This document shows positions 2,443-8,220 of a stretch of DNA of 20,098 nt, in pieces; positions within the stretch are counted from its first letter, which is position 1, and every line of letters begins with the position of its first letter. A program made the position numbers and the translations under genes. Source of the DNA: a virus; IMG/VR virus record IMGVR_UViG_3300024265_000236, positions 1 through 20,098 of that record; one strand, written 5' to 3'. The notes under the pieces were generated by a model. That model had not been told where the DNA came from, made no database searches, and worked only from the letters and a program-made list of their open reading frames with translations.

Positions 2443-2753
2443 TGGGCACGATCATTCACCACGCGATAATTGCCACAGCATGCACAGACGATTTCAGCAA
2501 GCTAGTGGCCCTCGTTGGTGCGAGGGGCGACTGCTGGGTCAGCGACATGGGAATCAACGCGTATCGTACGTTTTTCCTAGCTCCGGACGGCAGCAAAGAG
2601 AGCTGGGCCGAATCCGACACCGGCGATGACCTACGCGATGATGTGGTGAAGTGGCTTAGCCGTGATGATTTTTACGGTGAATGGTGCGAGATCGCGATGG
2701 GTGAGCTACCTGGCCATGACAGTGATGCGATAGTCACGCGACGCCCCGGGTGA
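2442..2753 (+). CDS. Hypothetical protein (103 aa)
   Basis: A 103-residue protein. I place the start at the ATG of 2442 because it is coupled to the preceding TGA; the frame stays open upstream to 2334, but that part overlaps the previous gene. The sequence runs MGTIIHHAIIATACTDDFSK, later WVSDMGINAYRTFFLAPDGS and a very acidic stretch around SWAESDTGDDLRDDV. A small alpha/beta fold is plausible. The tone (two short strands, acidic centre, solvent-exposed aromatic residues) resembles uncharacterised phage early proteins. The stop overlaps the GTG start of the DNA polymerase (GTGA), so the two are translationally coupled. No family recognised. Confidence 0.68.
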   Translation: MGTIIHHAIIATACTDDFSKLVALVGARGDCWVSDMGINAYRTFFLAPDGSKESWAESDTGDDLRDDVVKWLSRDDFYGEWCEIAMGELPGHDSDAIVTRRPG

Positions 2754-4939
2754 CTGACCACCTCTACGGCACCCAGCTCCCCGCCGGCCACTCCGTCTCC
2801 ACCGTGCTCGCCTCGGGTGATTTCGAAACGTACAGCGAGGCCGGCTTCATCTGGACAGGCGAGCGCTGGGCCGCGGCCAAGAAAGGCTCCCCCGGCATCG
2901 CTGCTGTCGGCGCGTGGTCGTACAGCGCCCACCCGTCCACCGAGGTGCTCGTATTCCGCTACGACCTGAAGGATGGCGCGGGGCTCCGCTACTGGCGCCC
3001 GGGGTGCCCGCCGCCCGCCGAGCTCTTCCAGCATCTCGCCGCCGGCAAGCTCTTCGAAGCAACGAACAGCTTCTTCGAGTACGTGATCTGGTCCAACGTA
3101 TGCGTCCGCCGCTACGGCTGGCCGGCACTCCCGCTCGATCAGGTGCGCGACGTCGCAGCGAAGGCCGGCGCCTGGACGCTCCCCCGGAAGCTCGAGCATG
3201 CGGCGAACGTCCTCGAGACGTCCGAACGGAAGGACACCGAGGGGCATCGCGTGATGCTGCGGCTCTCAAAGCCGCGGAACCCCACCAAGACAGACGACAG
3301 CCTCAGACACACCCGTGAGGGCGTGCCCGGGGACTTCGCGCGACTCGACGCCTACTGCGCCGACGACGTGCGCGCTGAGGATGCGGTGAGCGCCCGCTGC
3401 CCAGACCTCTCACCGTACGAGACCCGCGTGTTTCTCGCCGATCAGGTGATCAACGTGCGCGGAGTCCGCTGCGACCGGGAGGCCGTGGACGCCTCGCTCG
3501 CAATCATCGAGCAAGCCGCAGCCCGCTACAACGTCGAGCTACAGCACGTTACGGGCGGCACGGTCGGCACCGCTGACGAGCTGGACAAGATGAAGGCGTG
3601 GCTGCTCACCCAGGGGGTGAACGCACCGGAGATCACAAAGGACACACTGCCCGTACTGCTCGCCAGCCCCCTACCCGACGCCGCCCGCCGTGTCCTGCAG
3701 ATCCGGGAGCTAATGGGCTCACTGAGCGTCAAGAAAACGCGCTCCATGAGCCTTATGATGGATCCACGTGACGACCGAATCAGAGGGCTCTACACGTACG
3801 CAGGAGCGCCTCGCACGTGGCGCTGGTCGGGCGGCGGTGTCCAGCCGCAGAACCTCCCGAAGGACGGCCCTGACGTCGTACGGTGCGTCAGGTGCAGCAC
3901 CGTCCACTGGTCCGGGCTCGGCTATTGCCCGAGCTGCTTCGGGACGCACAGCAAGCCCGCAAAGTGGGGCATCGAAGCGGCCGAGGCGTGCATCCCCGCG
4001 TTGCTCACCCGCTCGCTCGATATCGTCGAGTCCCTGTGGGGCGATGCGCTGCTAGCAATCGCGGGGTGCTTGAGGTCGTTCTTCATCGCTGGCCCGGGCT
4101 GCGTGCTGCGCTCGTCGGATCTCAGTTCAATTGAGGCTGTGGTGATCGCGGAGCTGGCTGGCGAGACCTGGCGACAGGAAGTGTTCCGGACACACGGGAA
4201 GATCTACGAGATGACCGCGAGCAAGCTCACGCACACCCCGTTCGAGGAGTTTGCGCGGTACAAGGCCGAGACAGGTCTTGACCACCCGCAGCGGGCGCTC
4301 GGTAAGGTGGCGGAGCTCGCCTCAAGCTTCGGGGGGTGGGGTAAGGCGTGGGCTAAATTCGGCGCCGCTGAGTTCATGACCGAGCACGAGATGGAGGTCA
4401 ACAGCAGTAAGTGGCGCAAGCAATCACCTATGATCGTGGCGCTCTGGAAAGGCCTCGAGACCGCGGCCATAGCTGCAATCGAGAACCCCGGACAGTGCTA
4501 CCGGTACCGCCAGCTCGCCTACCAGATGCACGCAAACGTGCTCTACTGCCAGCTCCCAAGCGGCCGGGCGATCCCTTACCACGCCCCCCACGTGTTCGAA
4601 GAGATCCGCTACGACAAACCAACGAAGAGCATCGCCTACATGGGCGTTGACTCACAGTCCAAGCAGTGGCGACAGCAATTTACGTACGGCGCGAAGCTCG
4701 CCGAAAACTGCACGCAAGCTACGGCCCGCGATATCTTCGCGGCCGGGATCGTGCGGCTCGAGGATGCGGGCTACCCCGTTGTCCTACACACTCACGATGA
4801 ACCAACGTGCGAGCTGCCCGAGGGCGTGGGCTCCGTTGAAGAGATCGAGCGGCTCATGACTGTGCCGCTCCCGTGGTGTCCGGACTGGCCGGTACGCGCT
4901 AGCGGGGGCTGGTCTGGACAGAGATATCGGAAGGGGTAG
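2750..4939 (+). CDS. Family A DNA polymerase with 3'-5' exonuclease and inserted zinc ribbon
   Basis: A 729-residue replicative polymerase, close in length to T7 DNA polymerase. The exonuclease domain opens with DFETYSE (D24, E26) and closes near YCADDVRAEDA. The polymerase motifs are: the pre-palm signature PRTWRWSGGGVQPQNLPK; motif A SSDLSSIEAVVIAELAG with the metal-binding D457 (DLSSIE replaces the common DYSQIE); motif B RALGK...SFGGWG with R515 and K519; motif C HTHDEP with H682-D683-E684. Between the QNLP element and motif A sits an extra segment with C379-x2-C382 and C393-x2-C396, a zinc ribbon not usual in this family. The GTG start is coupled to the upstream stop. With the DUF2800 and DUF2815 genes it forms a phage replication module acting on the viral genome in the cytoplasm. 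Confidence 0.92.
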   Translation: MTDHLYGTQLPAGHSVSTVLASGDFETYSEAGFIWTGERWAAAKKGSPGIAAVGAWSYSAHPSTEVLVFRYDLKDGAGLRYWRPGCPPPAELFQHLAAGKLFEATNSFFEYVIWSNVCVRRYGWPALPLDQVRDVAAKAGAWTLPRKLEHAANVLETSERKDTEGHRVMLRLSKPRNPTKTDDSLRHTREGVPGDFARLDAYCADDVRAEDAVSARCPDLSPYETRVFLADQVINVRGVRCDREAVDASLAIIEQAAARYNVELQHVTGGTVGTADELDKMKAWLLTQGVNAPEITKDTLPVLLASPLPDAARRVLQIRELMGSLSVKKTRSMSLMMDPRDDRIRGLYTYAGAPRTWRWSGGGVQPQNLPKDGPDVVRCVRCSTVHWSGLGYCPSCFGTHSKPAKWGIEAAEACIPALLTRSLDIVESLWGDALLAIAGCLRSFFIAGPGCVLRSSDLSSIEAVVIAELAGETWRQEVFRTHGKIYEMTASKLTHTPFEEFARYKAETGLDHPQRALGKVAELASSFGGWGKAWAKFGAAEFMTEHEMEVNSSKWRKQSPMIVALWKGLETAAIAAIENPGQCYRYRQLAYQMHANVLYCQLPSGRAIPYHAPHVFEEIRYDKPTKSIAYMGVDSQSKQWRQQFTYGAKLAENCTQATARDIFAAGIVRLEDAGYPVVLHTHDEPTCELPEGVGSVEEIERLMTVPLPWCPDWPVRASGGWSGQRYRKG

Positions 4940-4943
4940 GGCA

Positions 4944-5291
4944 GTGCGCTACGACCCCAGTCTCAAGCCGGGTAAATCCTGGGCTCACTTGCGTCTTACG
5001 AGCACAGACACATACGATAAACCGTGGCTAACAGACGTCACGGTCGGCGAATGCCAGCACGCGGAGAGTCTTGCTGAAGCTGGGGCTGAACGTGCGGTAG
5101 CACTTCCTGGGGTAGCGCGCATCTTCACAGAGCGGCACGGAACAGACGATCTGCCGCCTCTGATGGGACACCAGTACGCTAGTCGCACCTCGCGTAAGCA
5201 GACCGAGTGGCGCTGTCAGAAATGCGGCGTATTGTGGGAGACCAACCGGACCGATCCGCAGTGGTGCTGCGCACTAGGGGGCGTGACGTGA
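4944..5291 (+). CDS. Hypothetical protein with C-terminal Cys-rich (zinc-ribbon-like) segment
   Basis: A 115-residue protein with a GTG start four bases after the polymerase stop; AAGGGG/AGGG lies just upstream as ribosome binding site. The N-terminal two thirds (DPSLKPGKSWAHLRLTSTDT...) are unrecognised. The C-terminus holds WRCQKCGVLWETN...PQWCC, a CxxC followed by CC after ~15 residues, which could bind one zinc ion. The protein may be a small nucleic-acid-binding accessory factor of the polymerase or of the following cassette; this rests only on position and the cysteines. Its stop overlaps the GTG of the IbrA-like gene (GTGA), so it may be the first gene of that cassette. Confidence 0.68.
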   Translation: MRYDPSLKPGKSWAHLRLTSTDTYDKPWLTDVTVGECQHAESLAEAGAERAVALPGVARIFTERHGTDDLPPLMGHQYASRTSRKQTEWRCQKCGVLWETNRTDPQWCCALGGVT

Positions 5292-6598
5292 AGCGAGCGG
5301 CAAGAGTGTACGACGGCACTAAGAACGTCTACGACGCTGCGCTCGAGCGCATCGCGTTCACGTTCGAGCATTTCGATCGGATCTACCTGTCCTTCTCGGG
5401 CGGGAAAGACAGCGGTGTGATGCTCAACATGTACATCGACTACATGCGAAAGCACGGGATCAAGCAGAAGCTGGGCGTAATGATCCTCGATAATGAGGCG
5501 AATTACGAGTATTCCATCGATTTCATGCACTCAATACTCAGGGCGAACCTCGACCTCCTGGACGTGTATTGGTGCTGCCTCCCGATCACCCTTCCGTGCA
5601 CGGTCAGCTCCTACGCCGTTGAGTGGCAGTGCTGGGGTGAACGCGACCGTGACCGCTGGATTCGGCCGATGCCCAAAGATAGCTACATCGTCAACGTCGA
5701 TAACTGTCCATTCGATTTCTTCCGCGAGGACATGAACTACGACGAGTTCTGGGATTCATTCGGCGATTGGTACGGCCAAGGGAAACGGACCGCGTGTTTG
5801 ATCGGCATACGAACCGTTGAGAGCCTGAACCGCTACCGCGCGATAATGAACACGCGGAAGGAAACGCTACACGGGGAGATGTGGACAAAACGAAACACCC
5901 CTACAGTCTACAACTGCTACCCCCTGTACGACTGGCGAACCGAGGATATCTGGGTTGCTAACGCCCGGTTCGAGTGGGAGTACAACCGACTCTACGACAT
6001 CTTCTATAAGGCTGGTGTGCCTGTCCATTCGATGCGGGTCGCGTCGCCGTTCATGAGCGAGTCGAAATCCAGCCTCGGGCTATACCGAGTCATCGACCCG
6101 CACGTCTGGGCCAAATTATGCGCCCGGGTTCAGGGCGCTAACTTCATAGCCACTTACGGGAGGCAGCTCAACTACAACTCGTTCAAGCTACCACCTGGCC
6201 ACACTTGGAAATCATTCACCAAGTTTCTTCTCGATACGCTTCCGGAGGAAGTGGCTGAGAATTTTAGACAACGGTTCATCCAATCGTTCAAGGTGTGGGG
6301 CAGGGTGGGCCGGGGATTGCCCGAGAGTGTGATACAAGAGCTGCGGGATCACGGCATCCCGTTCCGTCTGAACGGTAAGACGCACCACGGAAACAAGACG
6401 CTGGACCGGGTCCGAATCCAACGGTTCCCGGATCACCTCGACATGCTGAGCTGCCACAACGGGACGGTCGCCTCGTGGAAACGTTTCGCGCTAACGATCC
6501 TGAAGAACGACCACACATGTAAGTATATGGGGCTAGCCCCAACCAAGGGGCAAGCACTCCGTCAACGCCAGATCATGGAGAAATACAAGACACTATGA
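5288..6598 (+). CDS. IbrA-like PAPS-reductase/PP-loop protein (DUF3440)
   Basis: A 436-residue protein from the GTG at 5288, which is coupled to the upstream stop; the frame is open back to 5207, but that part overlaps the previous gene. The PP-loop motif SGGKDS lies at residues 37-42, defining the PAPS-reductase/adenine-nucleotide alpha-hydrolase fold that activates a substrate by adenylation. The middle contains YNCYPLYDWRTEDIW and later YNRLYDIFYKAGVP, hallmarks of the DUF3440 branch that includes E. coli IbrA, a protein linked to regulation of prophage-borne immunoglobulin-binding proteins but of unknown chemistry. The C-terminus (WKRFALTILKNDHTC, ~397-411) is a separate helical module that recurs in the gene at 7540. 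ATGA overlap with the EctC-like gene and an IbrB-like gene two positions on indicate one functional unit. True PAPS reduction is unlikely; transfer of sulfur, or of a nucleotide-activated group, is possible. Confidence 0.87.
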   Translation: MKRAARVYDGTKNVYDAALERIAFTFEHFDRIYLSFSGGKDSGVMLNMYIDYMRKHGIKQKLGVMILDNEANYEYSIDFMHSILRANLDLLDVYWCCLPITLPCTVSSYAVEWQCWGERDRDRWIRPMPKDSYIVNVDNCPFDFFREDMNYDEFWDSFGDWYGQGKRTACLIGIRTVESLNRYRAIMNTRKETLHGEMWTKRNTPTVYNCYPLYDWRTEDIWVANARFEWEYNRLYDIFYKAGVPVHSMRVASPFMSESKSSLGLYRVIDPHVWAKLCARVQGANFIATYGRQLNYNSFKLPPGHTWKSFTKFLLDTLPEEVAENFRQRFIQSFKVWGRVGRGLPESVIQELRDHGIPFRLNGKTHHGNKTLDRVRIQRFPDHLDMLSCHNGTVASWKRFALTILKNDHTCKYMGLAPTKGQALRQRQIMEKYKTL

Positions 6599-6984
6599 TA
6601 GTCATCGACATCGAAAAGCACATTGCGGGGACTTGCCAGGAGGTCCAGTGCCCAAAGGACGGGTTTACGAGCTTTCGGGCCCTGCTAGCTGCGGACGGCA
6701 TGGGATTCTCGATGAGCAAAACCTTAATCCCGCGTGGCGAGACGCAACACTGGCACTACAAGAATCATCTCGAAGCGTGCTACTGCGTGTCTGGCCTAGG
6801 GTTGCTCACCGTTGATGAAACGGGCGACAATTTCGTGATCAGACCCGACGTCGTTTACGCCGTTGACAAACACGACTCGCATCATTTCATCGCTTTCGAG
6901 GACGTGGTCTTGATCTGCGTATTCAACCCACCCCTCAGAGGCCGCGAGCTTCATCGTGTGGATGGTTCCTACCGTGCCGGATGA
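6595..6984 (+). CDS. Ectoine-synthase-like cupin (EctC family), phage-encoded
   Basis: A 129-residue protein of almost exactly EctC length and layout. EctC (EC 4.2.1.108) cyclises N-gamma-acetyl-diaminobutyrate to ectoine on an iron-containing cupin. Family blocks are clear: MIVIDIEKHIAGT, FRALLAADGMGFSMSKTLI, HYKNHLEACYCVSGLG, VYAVDKHDSHHFIA and LICVFNPPLRGRE. The residues equivalent to the iron ligands described for Paenibacillus lautus EctC (Glu57, Tyr85, His93) are present with constant offset as E60, Y88 and H96; R28, T43, Y55, H58, C108 and F110 also match substrate-site positions, while the expected Trp is F24. No ectA or ectB is in the window. The gene sits between IbrA-like and IbrB-like genes with overlaps on both sides, so it may act on a different substrate in that system, or be an auxiliary metabolic gene. 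Confidence 0.88.
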   Translation: MIVIDIEKHIAGTCQEVQCPKDGFTSFRALLAADGMGFSMSKTLIPRGETQHWHYKNHLEACYCVSGLGLLTVDETGDNFVIRPDVVYAVDKHDSHHFIAFEDVVLICVFNPPLRGRELHRVDGSYRAG

Positions 6985-7543
6985 CCCCTTCGCACCGGTC
7001 TTCTGCTCTCCGGTATACAGGGTTCTCGCGGTCCCTATCGAGCAAGTCGTGGCGAACGCCTACAACCCGAACGCTGTCGCCCCGCCCGAGATGGCGCTGC
7101 TAGAAACGTCTATCTGGGAGGATGGCTTCACGCAACCGATCGTCACTTACTACGACGCTGAGAATGCGCAATACGTTGTCGTGGACGGGTTCCATCGATA
7201 CCTGACGATCAAAAACAGCGAACGGATTCGTACACGTGAGCGCGGCCTGCTGCCCGTCGTCGTGATCGATAAAGACATCTCGGACCGGATGGCCTCTACG
7301 ATCCGGCACAACCGAGCGCGGGGCGCGCACAACGTGGAGCTGATGAGCGCCATCGTTGCCGAGCTCGTGGAGATGGGGAAAGGTGATCGGTGGATCTGCA
7401 AGCACATCGGGATGAGCGCCGATGAACTGCTGAGACTGAAGCAAATCACCGGGGTCGCCGCGCTGTTCGCGAACCAAGAGTTCTCCAAGAGCTGGCAGGC
7501 GGACGTGTCATCCGAGGACATGCACTTCGAAGATGGATCGTGA
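6956..7543 (+). CDS. IbrB-like ParB/sulfiredoxin-fold protein
   Basis: About 195 residues if the GTG at 6956 is used; ATG 6962 or GTG 6974 are alternatives, all overlapping the end of the EctC-like gene. The domain spans ~18-110: VPIEQVVANAYNPNAVAPPE, LLETSIWEDGFTQPIVTYY, and the signature VVDGFHRYLTI in place of the ParB GxxR box. This is the IbrB branch of the ParB/Srx superfamily, which usually travels with IbrA. Residues ~115-165 (IRHNRARGAHNVELMSAIVA, then ICKHIGMSADELLRLKQI) look like the helical HTH-type domain that follows in ParB proteins. Role in IbrA/IbrB systems is unresolved: DNA binding, nucleotide binding or phosphotransfer have all been considered for this fold. The stop overlaps the GTG of the next gene. 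Confidence 0.82.
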   Translation: MWMVPTVPDDPFAPVFCSPVYRVLAVPIEQVVANAYNPNAVAPPEMALLETSIWEDGFTQPIVTYYDAENAQYVVVDGFHRYLTIKNSERIRTRERGLLPVVVIDKDISDRMASTIRHNRARGAHNVELMSAIVAELVEMGKGDRWICKHIGMSADELLRLKQITGVAALFANQEFSKSWQADVSSEDMHFEDGS

Positions 7544-8220
7544 GGGTCTTTCGGCACTGGGAGACCTGGGAGTGCGTTCCCGCCGGCATGTACGAGTCAG
7601 CGCCCCCCGTTGGGATAGACACAGAAAGGGCTCGTGCGCTGTACGCCGAGTTTCTGGGCGACGTCGCCCGATTCGCCCGGGCTATGCAACGCGTGTTTGA
7701 TGAGTGGCCGGTGTCGTGCGAGCACTTTCTTTCGAACGACAAGATCAACCGAATCGCCTGGCTCGGGCAGTCGGCCATGTGCATCGAGAGGGCAATCCCG
7801 TCGACCTCCCGAGGCGGCTTCAAGCTCTTGAGCGATCAGAAGCAGCGCGAAGCGAACGCTATCGCCGAGATCTACCTGAACCACTGGCTGACCACCGTGG
7901 AATCGGGGCTGCAGTGGCCAGGAACGCTTCCTACGCGACGAAAGCTCACTCCGGGGGTCCGTAGCCGGGTGCGGGAATACGAACGCCAGTGGCGGGCCCG
8001 AGGCTATGCAGAGGGGCTCCCTGATGAGGTCCCCGTGGTCCTGATGCGAGACAACCTCGCGCCCTCGCACAAAGCCCTTGCTCTCGCGATCCTCCGGAAC
8101 GACGTCACGGGACAGTCACTTGGCTTCACGCCTCGGCCGTCCCGCTACTACGGTATCCTGAAGCGGCTGGAACTCGAGGGCCGCGGGGGAAGGAGAAGTA
8201 GATGGCCGAATGGCTTCTGA
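7540..8220 (+). CDS. IbrA/IbrB-associated phage protein with C-terminal module shared with IbrA
   Basis: A 226-residue protein with a GTG start coupled to the IbrB-like stop. The N-terminal part opens HWETWECVPAGMYESAPP; the centre contains WPVSCEHFLSNDKINRIAWL and GQSAMCIERAIPS, resembling an uncharacterised phage family found near IbrA/IbrB genes (recalled, not searched). The C-terminus, residues ~174-215 (SHKALALAILRNDVTGQSLG followed by a Pro and a basic helix), aligns with the C-terminus of the IbrA-like protein (SWKRFALTILKNDHTCKYMG): same spacing of S-x-K, A-L-x-I-L, N-D-x-T and G-x-x-P. The repeated module may be a docking or nucleic-acid-binding unit common to both proteins. No catalytic motif recognised. 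Confidence 0.75.
   Translation: MRVFRHWETWECVPAGMYESAPPVGIDTERARALYAEFLGDVARFARAMQRVFDEWPVSCEHFLSNDKINRIAWLGQSAMCIERAIPSTSRGGFKLLSDQKQREANAIAEIYLNHWLTTVESGLQWPGTLPTRRKLTPGVRSRVREYERQWRARGYAEGLPDEVPVVLMRDNLAPSHKALALAILRNDVTGQSLGFTPRPSRYYGILKRLELEGRGGRRSRWPNGF

Follow-up and report, generated by a model that had tools for sequence, protein, structure and literature searches.

A recurrent phage cassette joins an EctC-like cupin to an IbrA/IbrB pair and may serve nucleic-acid modification

What does an enzyme of the ectoine synthase family do between the two genes of an IbrA/IbrB pair? Such pairs occur widely in phages, and E. coli K-12 has one too. The question is raised by IMG/VR virus record IMGVR_UViG_3300024265_000236, which was analysed over its whole length of 20,098 bases (the window). 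Four genes on the plus strand form a compact cassette: A, an IbrA/YbdN-like protein with a PP-loop domain and a DUF3440 C-terminal region (5288..6598, GTG start); E, an EctC-like cupin of a phage subfamily, with HY replacing WY in the first cupin motif (6595..6984); B, an IbrB/YbdM-like ParB-fold protein carrying the motifs DGFHR and TIRHNRARG (6956..7543); and open reading frame (ORF) 4 (7540-8220), a fusion of two parts, D1 and D2. The A/E, E/B and B/ORF4 junctions overlap by 4, 29 and 4 nucleotides, as an earlier note made from this DNA alone had described, and its IbrA-like, EctC-like and IbrB-like assignments are borne out by matches to DUF3440, PF06339 and phrog_2159. We propose, at a probability of roughly 55%, that the cassette is a phage nucleic-acid hypermodification module whose most likely substrate is replicated phage DNA. 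The conserved active sites, the fusion of E to B and the co-occurrence of the genes are directly supported; the chemistry and the target are what we infer.

The arrangement is no one-off. Loci were ranked by similarity, and the counts given here are not population frequencies. A scan of IMG/VR seeded with E gave 119 loci, 80 of which were retrieved; with profiles built from the window proteins, A, B and D1 were detected near E in 77-78 of these 80. Where flanks of at least 3.5 kb were available on both sides, the full set of A, B and D1 stands beside E in every E-containing viral locus (44/44). The commonest order is A-E-B-D1-D2, and permuted orders such as B-D1-D2-A-E also occur (L003, L023, L029). 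Isolates carrying the cassette include Mycobacterium phage Gaia (gp103-107) and Pseudoalteromonas phage XCL1123, whose depositors annotated an 'ectoine synthase/ParB multidomain protein'. Of the 29 non-redundant type I cassettes, 15 encode E and B as one fused protein; through this fusion, B is physically coupled to E in many phages. Moreover, the sequence distances of E and A correlate (Mantel r 0.64, p 0.001), to which common phage ancestry could contribute. The recurrence in unrelated phages that the earlier note had proposed to look for is thus extensive, with 44 flanked loci and two isolates, and the arrangement is an old phage module.

Two further scans, both blind to E, bear on its composition. 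The D1-seeded scan gave at least 589 candidate loci in IMG/VR; among those with flanks, A and B are present in 37/37 and E in 8/37, the remainder being B-D1-A loci with a shorter A. The B-seeded scan (80 loci) provided usable E sequence from 24; in other loci, A and B stand alone or belong to D1-D2-A-B sets without E. Because both scans yield loci without E, A and B constitute the core of the cassette; D1 often joins them, alone or together with D2, and E is an optional part whose usual place is between A and B. A strict coupling of E to D2 was considered and dropped, as the B-seeded scan gave D1-D2-A-B sets without E. The D1 profile had no match in 369 genomes of one bacterial class, a weak result from a run without a positive control, and a plasmid scan found none. 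By eye, another PAPS-reductase-like ORF was seen near one B-D1-A cassette (L158, 1574-1978).

E matches Ectoine_synth PF06339 at an E-value of 5e-40 and solved ectoine synthases at 2e-25, and it scores 136.9 bits against the NCBIfam ectoine synthase model (cut-off 128). Its residues were compared with those of Paenibacillus lautus EctC, with residue roles taken from published work (PMC6344544). All 95 phage E proteins examined, and all 24 E proteins found blind via B, retain the metal ligands Glu57, Tyr84 and His92 as well as Ser23, Arg25, Thr40 and Tyr52. Trp-21, which is invariant across 437 bona fide EctC proteins and required for their activity (PMC6344544), is never present: its position holds F in 93/95 phage E proteins and G, F or C in 24/24 B-seeded copies. 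At the position of Trp-51, His restores the first histidine of the ordinary cupin motif in 93/95 and 22/24 proteins, the former count being partly biased by the window peptides, including QHWHYKNH, with which the E-seeded scan was queried, and the B-seeded set being free of that bias. Asn-38 is mostly replaced by Thr or His. Both tryptophans are present in a control, a bacterial EctC with an ectB-like neighbour (L085). This record (MT835761, 'Bacteriophage sp.'), with an ectB-ectC pair and genes resembling those of non-ribosomal peptide synthetases, has the appearance of a bacterial contig deposited under a phage label; it was rejected as a source of phage E and retained as the control.

The phage motif WHY[KTQ]xH[LQ]E[AST] gave one match, of 20 residues, in 84,980 genomes and is practically missing from bacterial genomes. 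The recurring neighbours of E are A, B, D1 and D2, and no Pfam family match to EctA or EctB was found among the cassette and nearby proteins scanned. As judged from these residues and neighbours, E is a distinct phage subfamily with an altered pocket and no plain ectoine synthase. Since the metal and substrate residues are kept and Trp-21 is never present, E is very likely active as an enzyme, on a substrate that differs from N-acetyl-diaminobutyrate. The ectoine synthase family that the earlier note had named for E therefore stands, and the active site is conserved; plain ectoine synthesis is ruled out by the loss of Trp-21 and by the lack of EctA and EctB among the proteins scanned. A search of the available literature found no paper linking a phage ectoine synthase to ParB.

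The strongest hint for a DNA target, and it is evidence of location, comes from the cluster B mycobacteriophages (Bclasvirinae), whose terminases are 54-67% identical among those compared. Upstream of the terminase, Godines carries ParB-DpdA-QueC-QueD-QueE-FolE, and Acadian carries a TET/JBP-like gene (1.4e-4, below cut-off), TAGT (6.5e-38), PIG-L and P-loop kinase 3. At the same place, Gadjet has ParB-gp2-gp3-A-B, in which gp1 shares 48% identity with the Godines ParB and gp5 38% with B of the window. A distant A-B pair thus fills the slot where sister phages keep DNA-modification modules. In Rosebush, a phage of the same genus as Godines, dPreQ0 accounts for about 28% of G (PMC6884629). The interchange of modification modules in this slot can be viewed at the left ends of the Bclasvirinae loci L178 (1-2717), L181 (1-4246), L179 (1-3588) and L182 (1-2382). 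In Gordonia phage Axumite (L184), the same slot holds ParB, an 'ABC-like' protein and a methyltransferase.

Within the cassette, genes other than E can likewise stand between A and B. In the B-seeded set this slot contains GNAT acetyltransferases above the Pfam cut-off in L204, L232 and L260 (with a weak match in L246) and methyltransferase-like genes below cut-off in L211, L229 and L254. A gene resembling PD-(D/E)XK nucleases lies between A and B in two D1-D2-A-B cassettes (L212:4349-4879 and L231:2213-2743). A phrog_11826 methyltransferase stands beside the A-B pair in Arthrobacter phage Salgado and Bacillus phage 031MP004, and in Microbacterium phages Hendrix and Dewdrop, A follows annotated glycosyltransferases, an acetyltransferase and a methyltransferase. 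A Rhizobium 'DNA methyltransferase' adjoining A proved to be just a ParB domain and was discarded. This modularity suggests that other phages may acetylate or methylate the same installed group. Genes near the cassettes include recombination exonucleases, SF2 helicases, and clamp and clamp-loader genes. In Fusobacterium phage phiFN37, a second ParB-like gene (L089, 8745-9266) immediately precedes a DpdA-like queuine tRNA-ribosyltransferase gene, and the A-B pair of this phage lies about 3 kb from that second ParB-like gene.

A matches DUF3440 PF11922 at 4e-58 over residues 270-449 (196.6 bits, cut-off 25), PAPS_reduct PF01507 at 3e-10 (40.8 bits) and phrog_2302 at 4e-108; E. coli YbdN matches the A profile at 5e-74. 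The PP-loop domain spans about residues 8-270, with SGGKDS at residues 37-42. Structure models were made without partners or ligands. In the AlphaFold2 model of A (pLDDT, the predicted local distance difference test score, of 85), residues 8-270 group with the PP-loop proteins FAD synthase, PAPS reductase and CysD, a subunit of ATP sulfurylase, with VIA Z scores of 13-15 over 170-196 residues; TilS and the tRNA thiolases NcsA/TtuA are also among the fold neighbours (Z 10-12). Conservation was assessed across a diverse set of 20 A proteins, E. coli YbdN among them. Kept across this set are SGGKDS (one Gly varies), D68, E70, W116, GIRxxESxxR and P212/D215/W216/D220; the adenylating PP-loop of A is intact. 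No cysteine is conserved family-wide across the 20 proteins; moreover, A has no CG[ILV]H corresponding to the CysH motif (E-C-G-[LI]-H), and CysH equivalog cut-offs are not reached. This pattern favours adenylation over reduction or persulfide transfer, and the 'PAPS reductase' label on A is a fold name and no assignment of function. Of the two chemistries that the earlier note had entertained for the PP-loop, adenylation is accordingly retained and sulfur chemistry becomes less likely. Persulfide chemistry via Cys97 and Cys411, which are invariant in 60 phage A proteins of D1-type cassettes, was considered and rejected: YbdN lacks Cys97, and the A protein of Lactobacillus phage CR28 lacks Cys411.

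Of all parts of the cassette, B varies least, with a mean identity of 77% among the non-redundant type I cassettes; in the window it shares an operon with A. It matches phrog_2159 at 4e-75 and ParB_N at 9e-5, which is under the cut-off, and its profile is matched by phage IbrB (3e-81) and E. coli YbdM (9e-58). The nearest solved relatives by profile are ParB/Noc (4e-6 to 1e-4), SbnI (0.002) and SerK (0.16). Its motifs are NPN, PPEM, DGxHR (DGFHR in the window) and TIRHNRARG.

ORF4 is a fusion of D1, its N-terminal helical part (7540..7905, plus strand), with D2, its C-terminal part (7951..8220, plus strand); the two are separate genes in nearly all relatives, and a second fusion was found in L104. 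D1 is conserved in cassettes with and without E. Its model is all-helical (pLDDT 95-99), and no convincing counterpart was found in the PDB with Foldseek and VIA (best E-value 0.77, Z 3.6). The C-terminus of ORF4 matches DUF3440 positions 138-175 at 2e-4 (0.03 against all Pfam) and phrog_15645 at 0.002. This weak match becomes solid because stand-alone D2 relatives match the C-terminal profile of A at 1e-14 to 1e-19. The claim that the last protein shares its C-terminal module with IbrA thus holds, and D2 is a duplicate of the DUF3440 module at the C-terminus of A. In one case (L028:4074-5330), which may be an assembly artefact, a single uninterrupted frame joins D2 to a DNA polymerase processivity factor (phrog_947, 1e-34).

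How might these proteins act together? A would spend ATP to adenylate either a base position or a small-molecule donor, and an amine-bearing group would then be attached, as in TilS-type chemistry. B, acting as a ParB-type nucleotidase or a DNA-bound factor, as has been proposed for DpdB, would drive or position the reaction on DNA, either by coupling nucleotide turnover to DNA or by positioning the substrate. E would then close the attached group to a ring by an EctC-type cyclocondensation in which water is lost, a step put forward tentatively. A GNAT or methyltransferase-like gene in the slot of E would decorate the same group differently, and the expected gain for the phage would be escape from host restriction. 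It is conceivable, if still doubtful, that the cassette represents a hitherto undescribed class of DNA hypermodification: an amine-bearing side chain would be placed on a base by a PP-loop/ParB core and turned into an ectoine-like cyclic amidine by an EctC-type cupin, whose slot between A and B can be taken by acetyl- or methyltransferases instead. The earlier note had suggested a modification pathway; the modular tailoring slot and the Bclasvirinae swap fit that suggestion, and the product and the target stay conditional, with DNA slightly favoured as the target.

Several points weigh against such a role. IbrA/IbrB (YbdN/YbdM) genes are also found on bacterial chromosomes, for example in E. 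coli K-12; to our knowledge, no DNA modification is known there, and the published role of the pair is gene activation. The solved proteins closest to B are partition proteins and no modification enzymes, the methyltransferase-like slot genes match Pfam families weakly, and both the replication-gene neighbourhood and the syntenic swap are circumstantial. In addition, the model of A could also be compatible with activation of a free metabolite or with modification of tRNA. The cassette might accordingly modify RNA, most likely tRNA, for example as a countermeasure to tRNA-cutting defences, with A in a role resembling that of TilS or TtcA and a cyclic side chain completed by E. TilS and NcsA/TtuA are indeed fold neighbours of A, at Z 10-12 versus 13-15 for FAD synthase and PAPS reductase, and Microbacterium phage Hendrix has A near tRNA genes. 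We consider this reading unlikely, since no tRNA gene was found in the window, the swap partners in Bclasvirinae are DNA-modification modules, and many ParB-type proteins (DpdB, partition proteins) work on DNA. A similarly low probability is given to the production of a nucleotide-linked or ectoine-like metabolite, such as a signal, a compound of the nucleoside triphosphate pool or of stress, or an inhibitor of host defence. The closest solved folds of A (FAD synthase, ATP sulfurylase, PAPS reductase) use free substrates, most EctC substrate residues are kept in E, and some ParB-fold proteins are serine kinases (SbnI at 0.002 and SerK at 0.16 against the B profile); however, Trp-21 is absent in every phage E, neither ectA, ectB nor another metabolite-pathway gene was seen recurring with the cassette, and the repeated neighbours are DNA recombination and replication genes.

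It is somewhat less probable still that IbrA/IbrB and the attached proteins regulate phage or host transcription with reused enzyme folds. IbrA/B have been described as co-activators of prophage gene expression (PMC4490671), which counts for such a role, and phage IbrA/IbrB genes carry the label 'co-activator of prophage gene expression' in GenBank. Nevertheless, the strict conservation of SGGKDS, D68, E70, GIRxxESxxR and the metal ligands of E would be needless for pure regulation, and phage E is found with the cassette in every complete locus. Finally, the EctC-like gene could be a host osmolyte gene that landed by chance between ibrA and ibrB, an idea to which we give hardly any credence. 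No point was found in its favour: the G+C content of A and E (0.55, compared with 0.65 for the polymerase gene) would fit transfer of the whole cassette. The 44/44 complete loci, the fusion to B, the Mantel correlation between E and A distances and the near-absence of the phage E motif from the 84,980 genomes scanned (the single 20-residue match) all speak against chance. A recent insertion is ruled out by the recurrence and the E-B fusion, and the alternative raised in the earlier note, a single recent insertion with a broken active site, is contradicted by the recurrence and by the conserved residues of E.

Upstream of the cassette, a family A polymerase gene (2750-4939) is followed by an ORF of 115 amino acids (4944..5291, plus strand), the end of which shares 4 nucleotides with the start of A. 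The cassette had been placed directly after the polymerase gene; it is indeed nearby, and the 115-amino-acid ORF intervenes. Pfam and PHROG profile searches with this ORF gave no family at a useful E-value. It is treated as a neighbour only, adjoining A. Close to its C-terminus are C-x2-C and WCC, a zinc-ribbon-like CxxC plus WCC arrangement. Elsewhere in the window, positions 462-1325 encode an Enc34-type single-stranded DNA-binding protein with a repetitive tail rich in Pro, Gly and Val (GAPVPIT repeats).

The locus offers three handles on IbrA/IbrB: the fusion of B to an enzyme of known mechanism, the alternative enzymes in the slot, and the swap with DNA-modification modules, one of which (dPreQ0) yields a product that has been measured in a related phage. 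A DNA-modifying cassette predicts an unusual nucleoside in the virion DNA of isolates such as Gaia; if true, it would bring new base-modification chemistry and a role for the long-orphan IbrA/IbrB pair.

The IbrA/IbrB pair is already known, and the EctC-ParB fusion has been noted by GenBank annotators; there is a real chance that the chemistry of the cassette is new. A and B of the window are clear members of the IbrA/IbrB (YbdN/YbdM) pairs, whereas the bare pairs of Streptococcus, Lactobacillus and E. coli K-12 lack the EctC-like enzyme, D1 and D2; bacterial YbdNM is under CitR repression (PMC9068703). With EctC, phage E shares the cupin family, the metal ligands and S23, R25, T40 and Y52; it differs in having no Trp-21, mostly no Trp-51 or N38, no ectA/ectB and often a fusion to ParB. 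DndC/BrxP shares the PAPS_reduct-superfamily PP-loop with A, and a weak PADLOC match to DndC was obtained (1.5e-4). Nevertheless, A scores 14.5 bits against DndC (TIGR03183), far below the cut-off of 290.4 bits, lacks a family-wide conserved cysteine, and has no DndA/D/E beside it among the cassette proteins. The TET/JBP-TAGT modules, as in Acadian, occupy the same slot and, like the cassette, combine a core with tailoring enzymes; their dioxygenase, glycosyltransferase and P-loop kinase were not identified among the four cassette proteins. In the Dpd/phage 7-deazaguanine system, the PP-loop family of QueC differs from that of A, and DpdA, QueC/D/E and FolE were likewise not identified among the four proteins. 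It is nonetheless, like the cassette, a multi-enzyme phage operon with a ParB-like protein (DpdB), and in Bclasvirinae it shares the terminase-upstream slot with the A-B pair.

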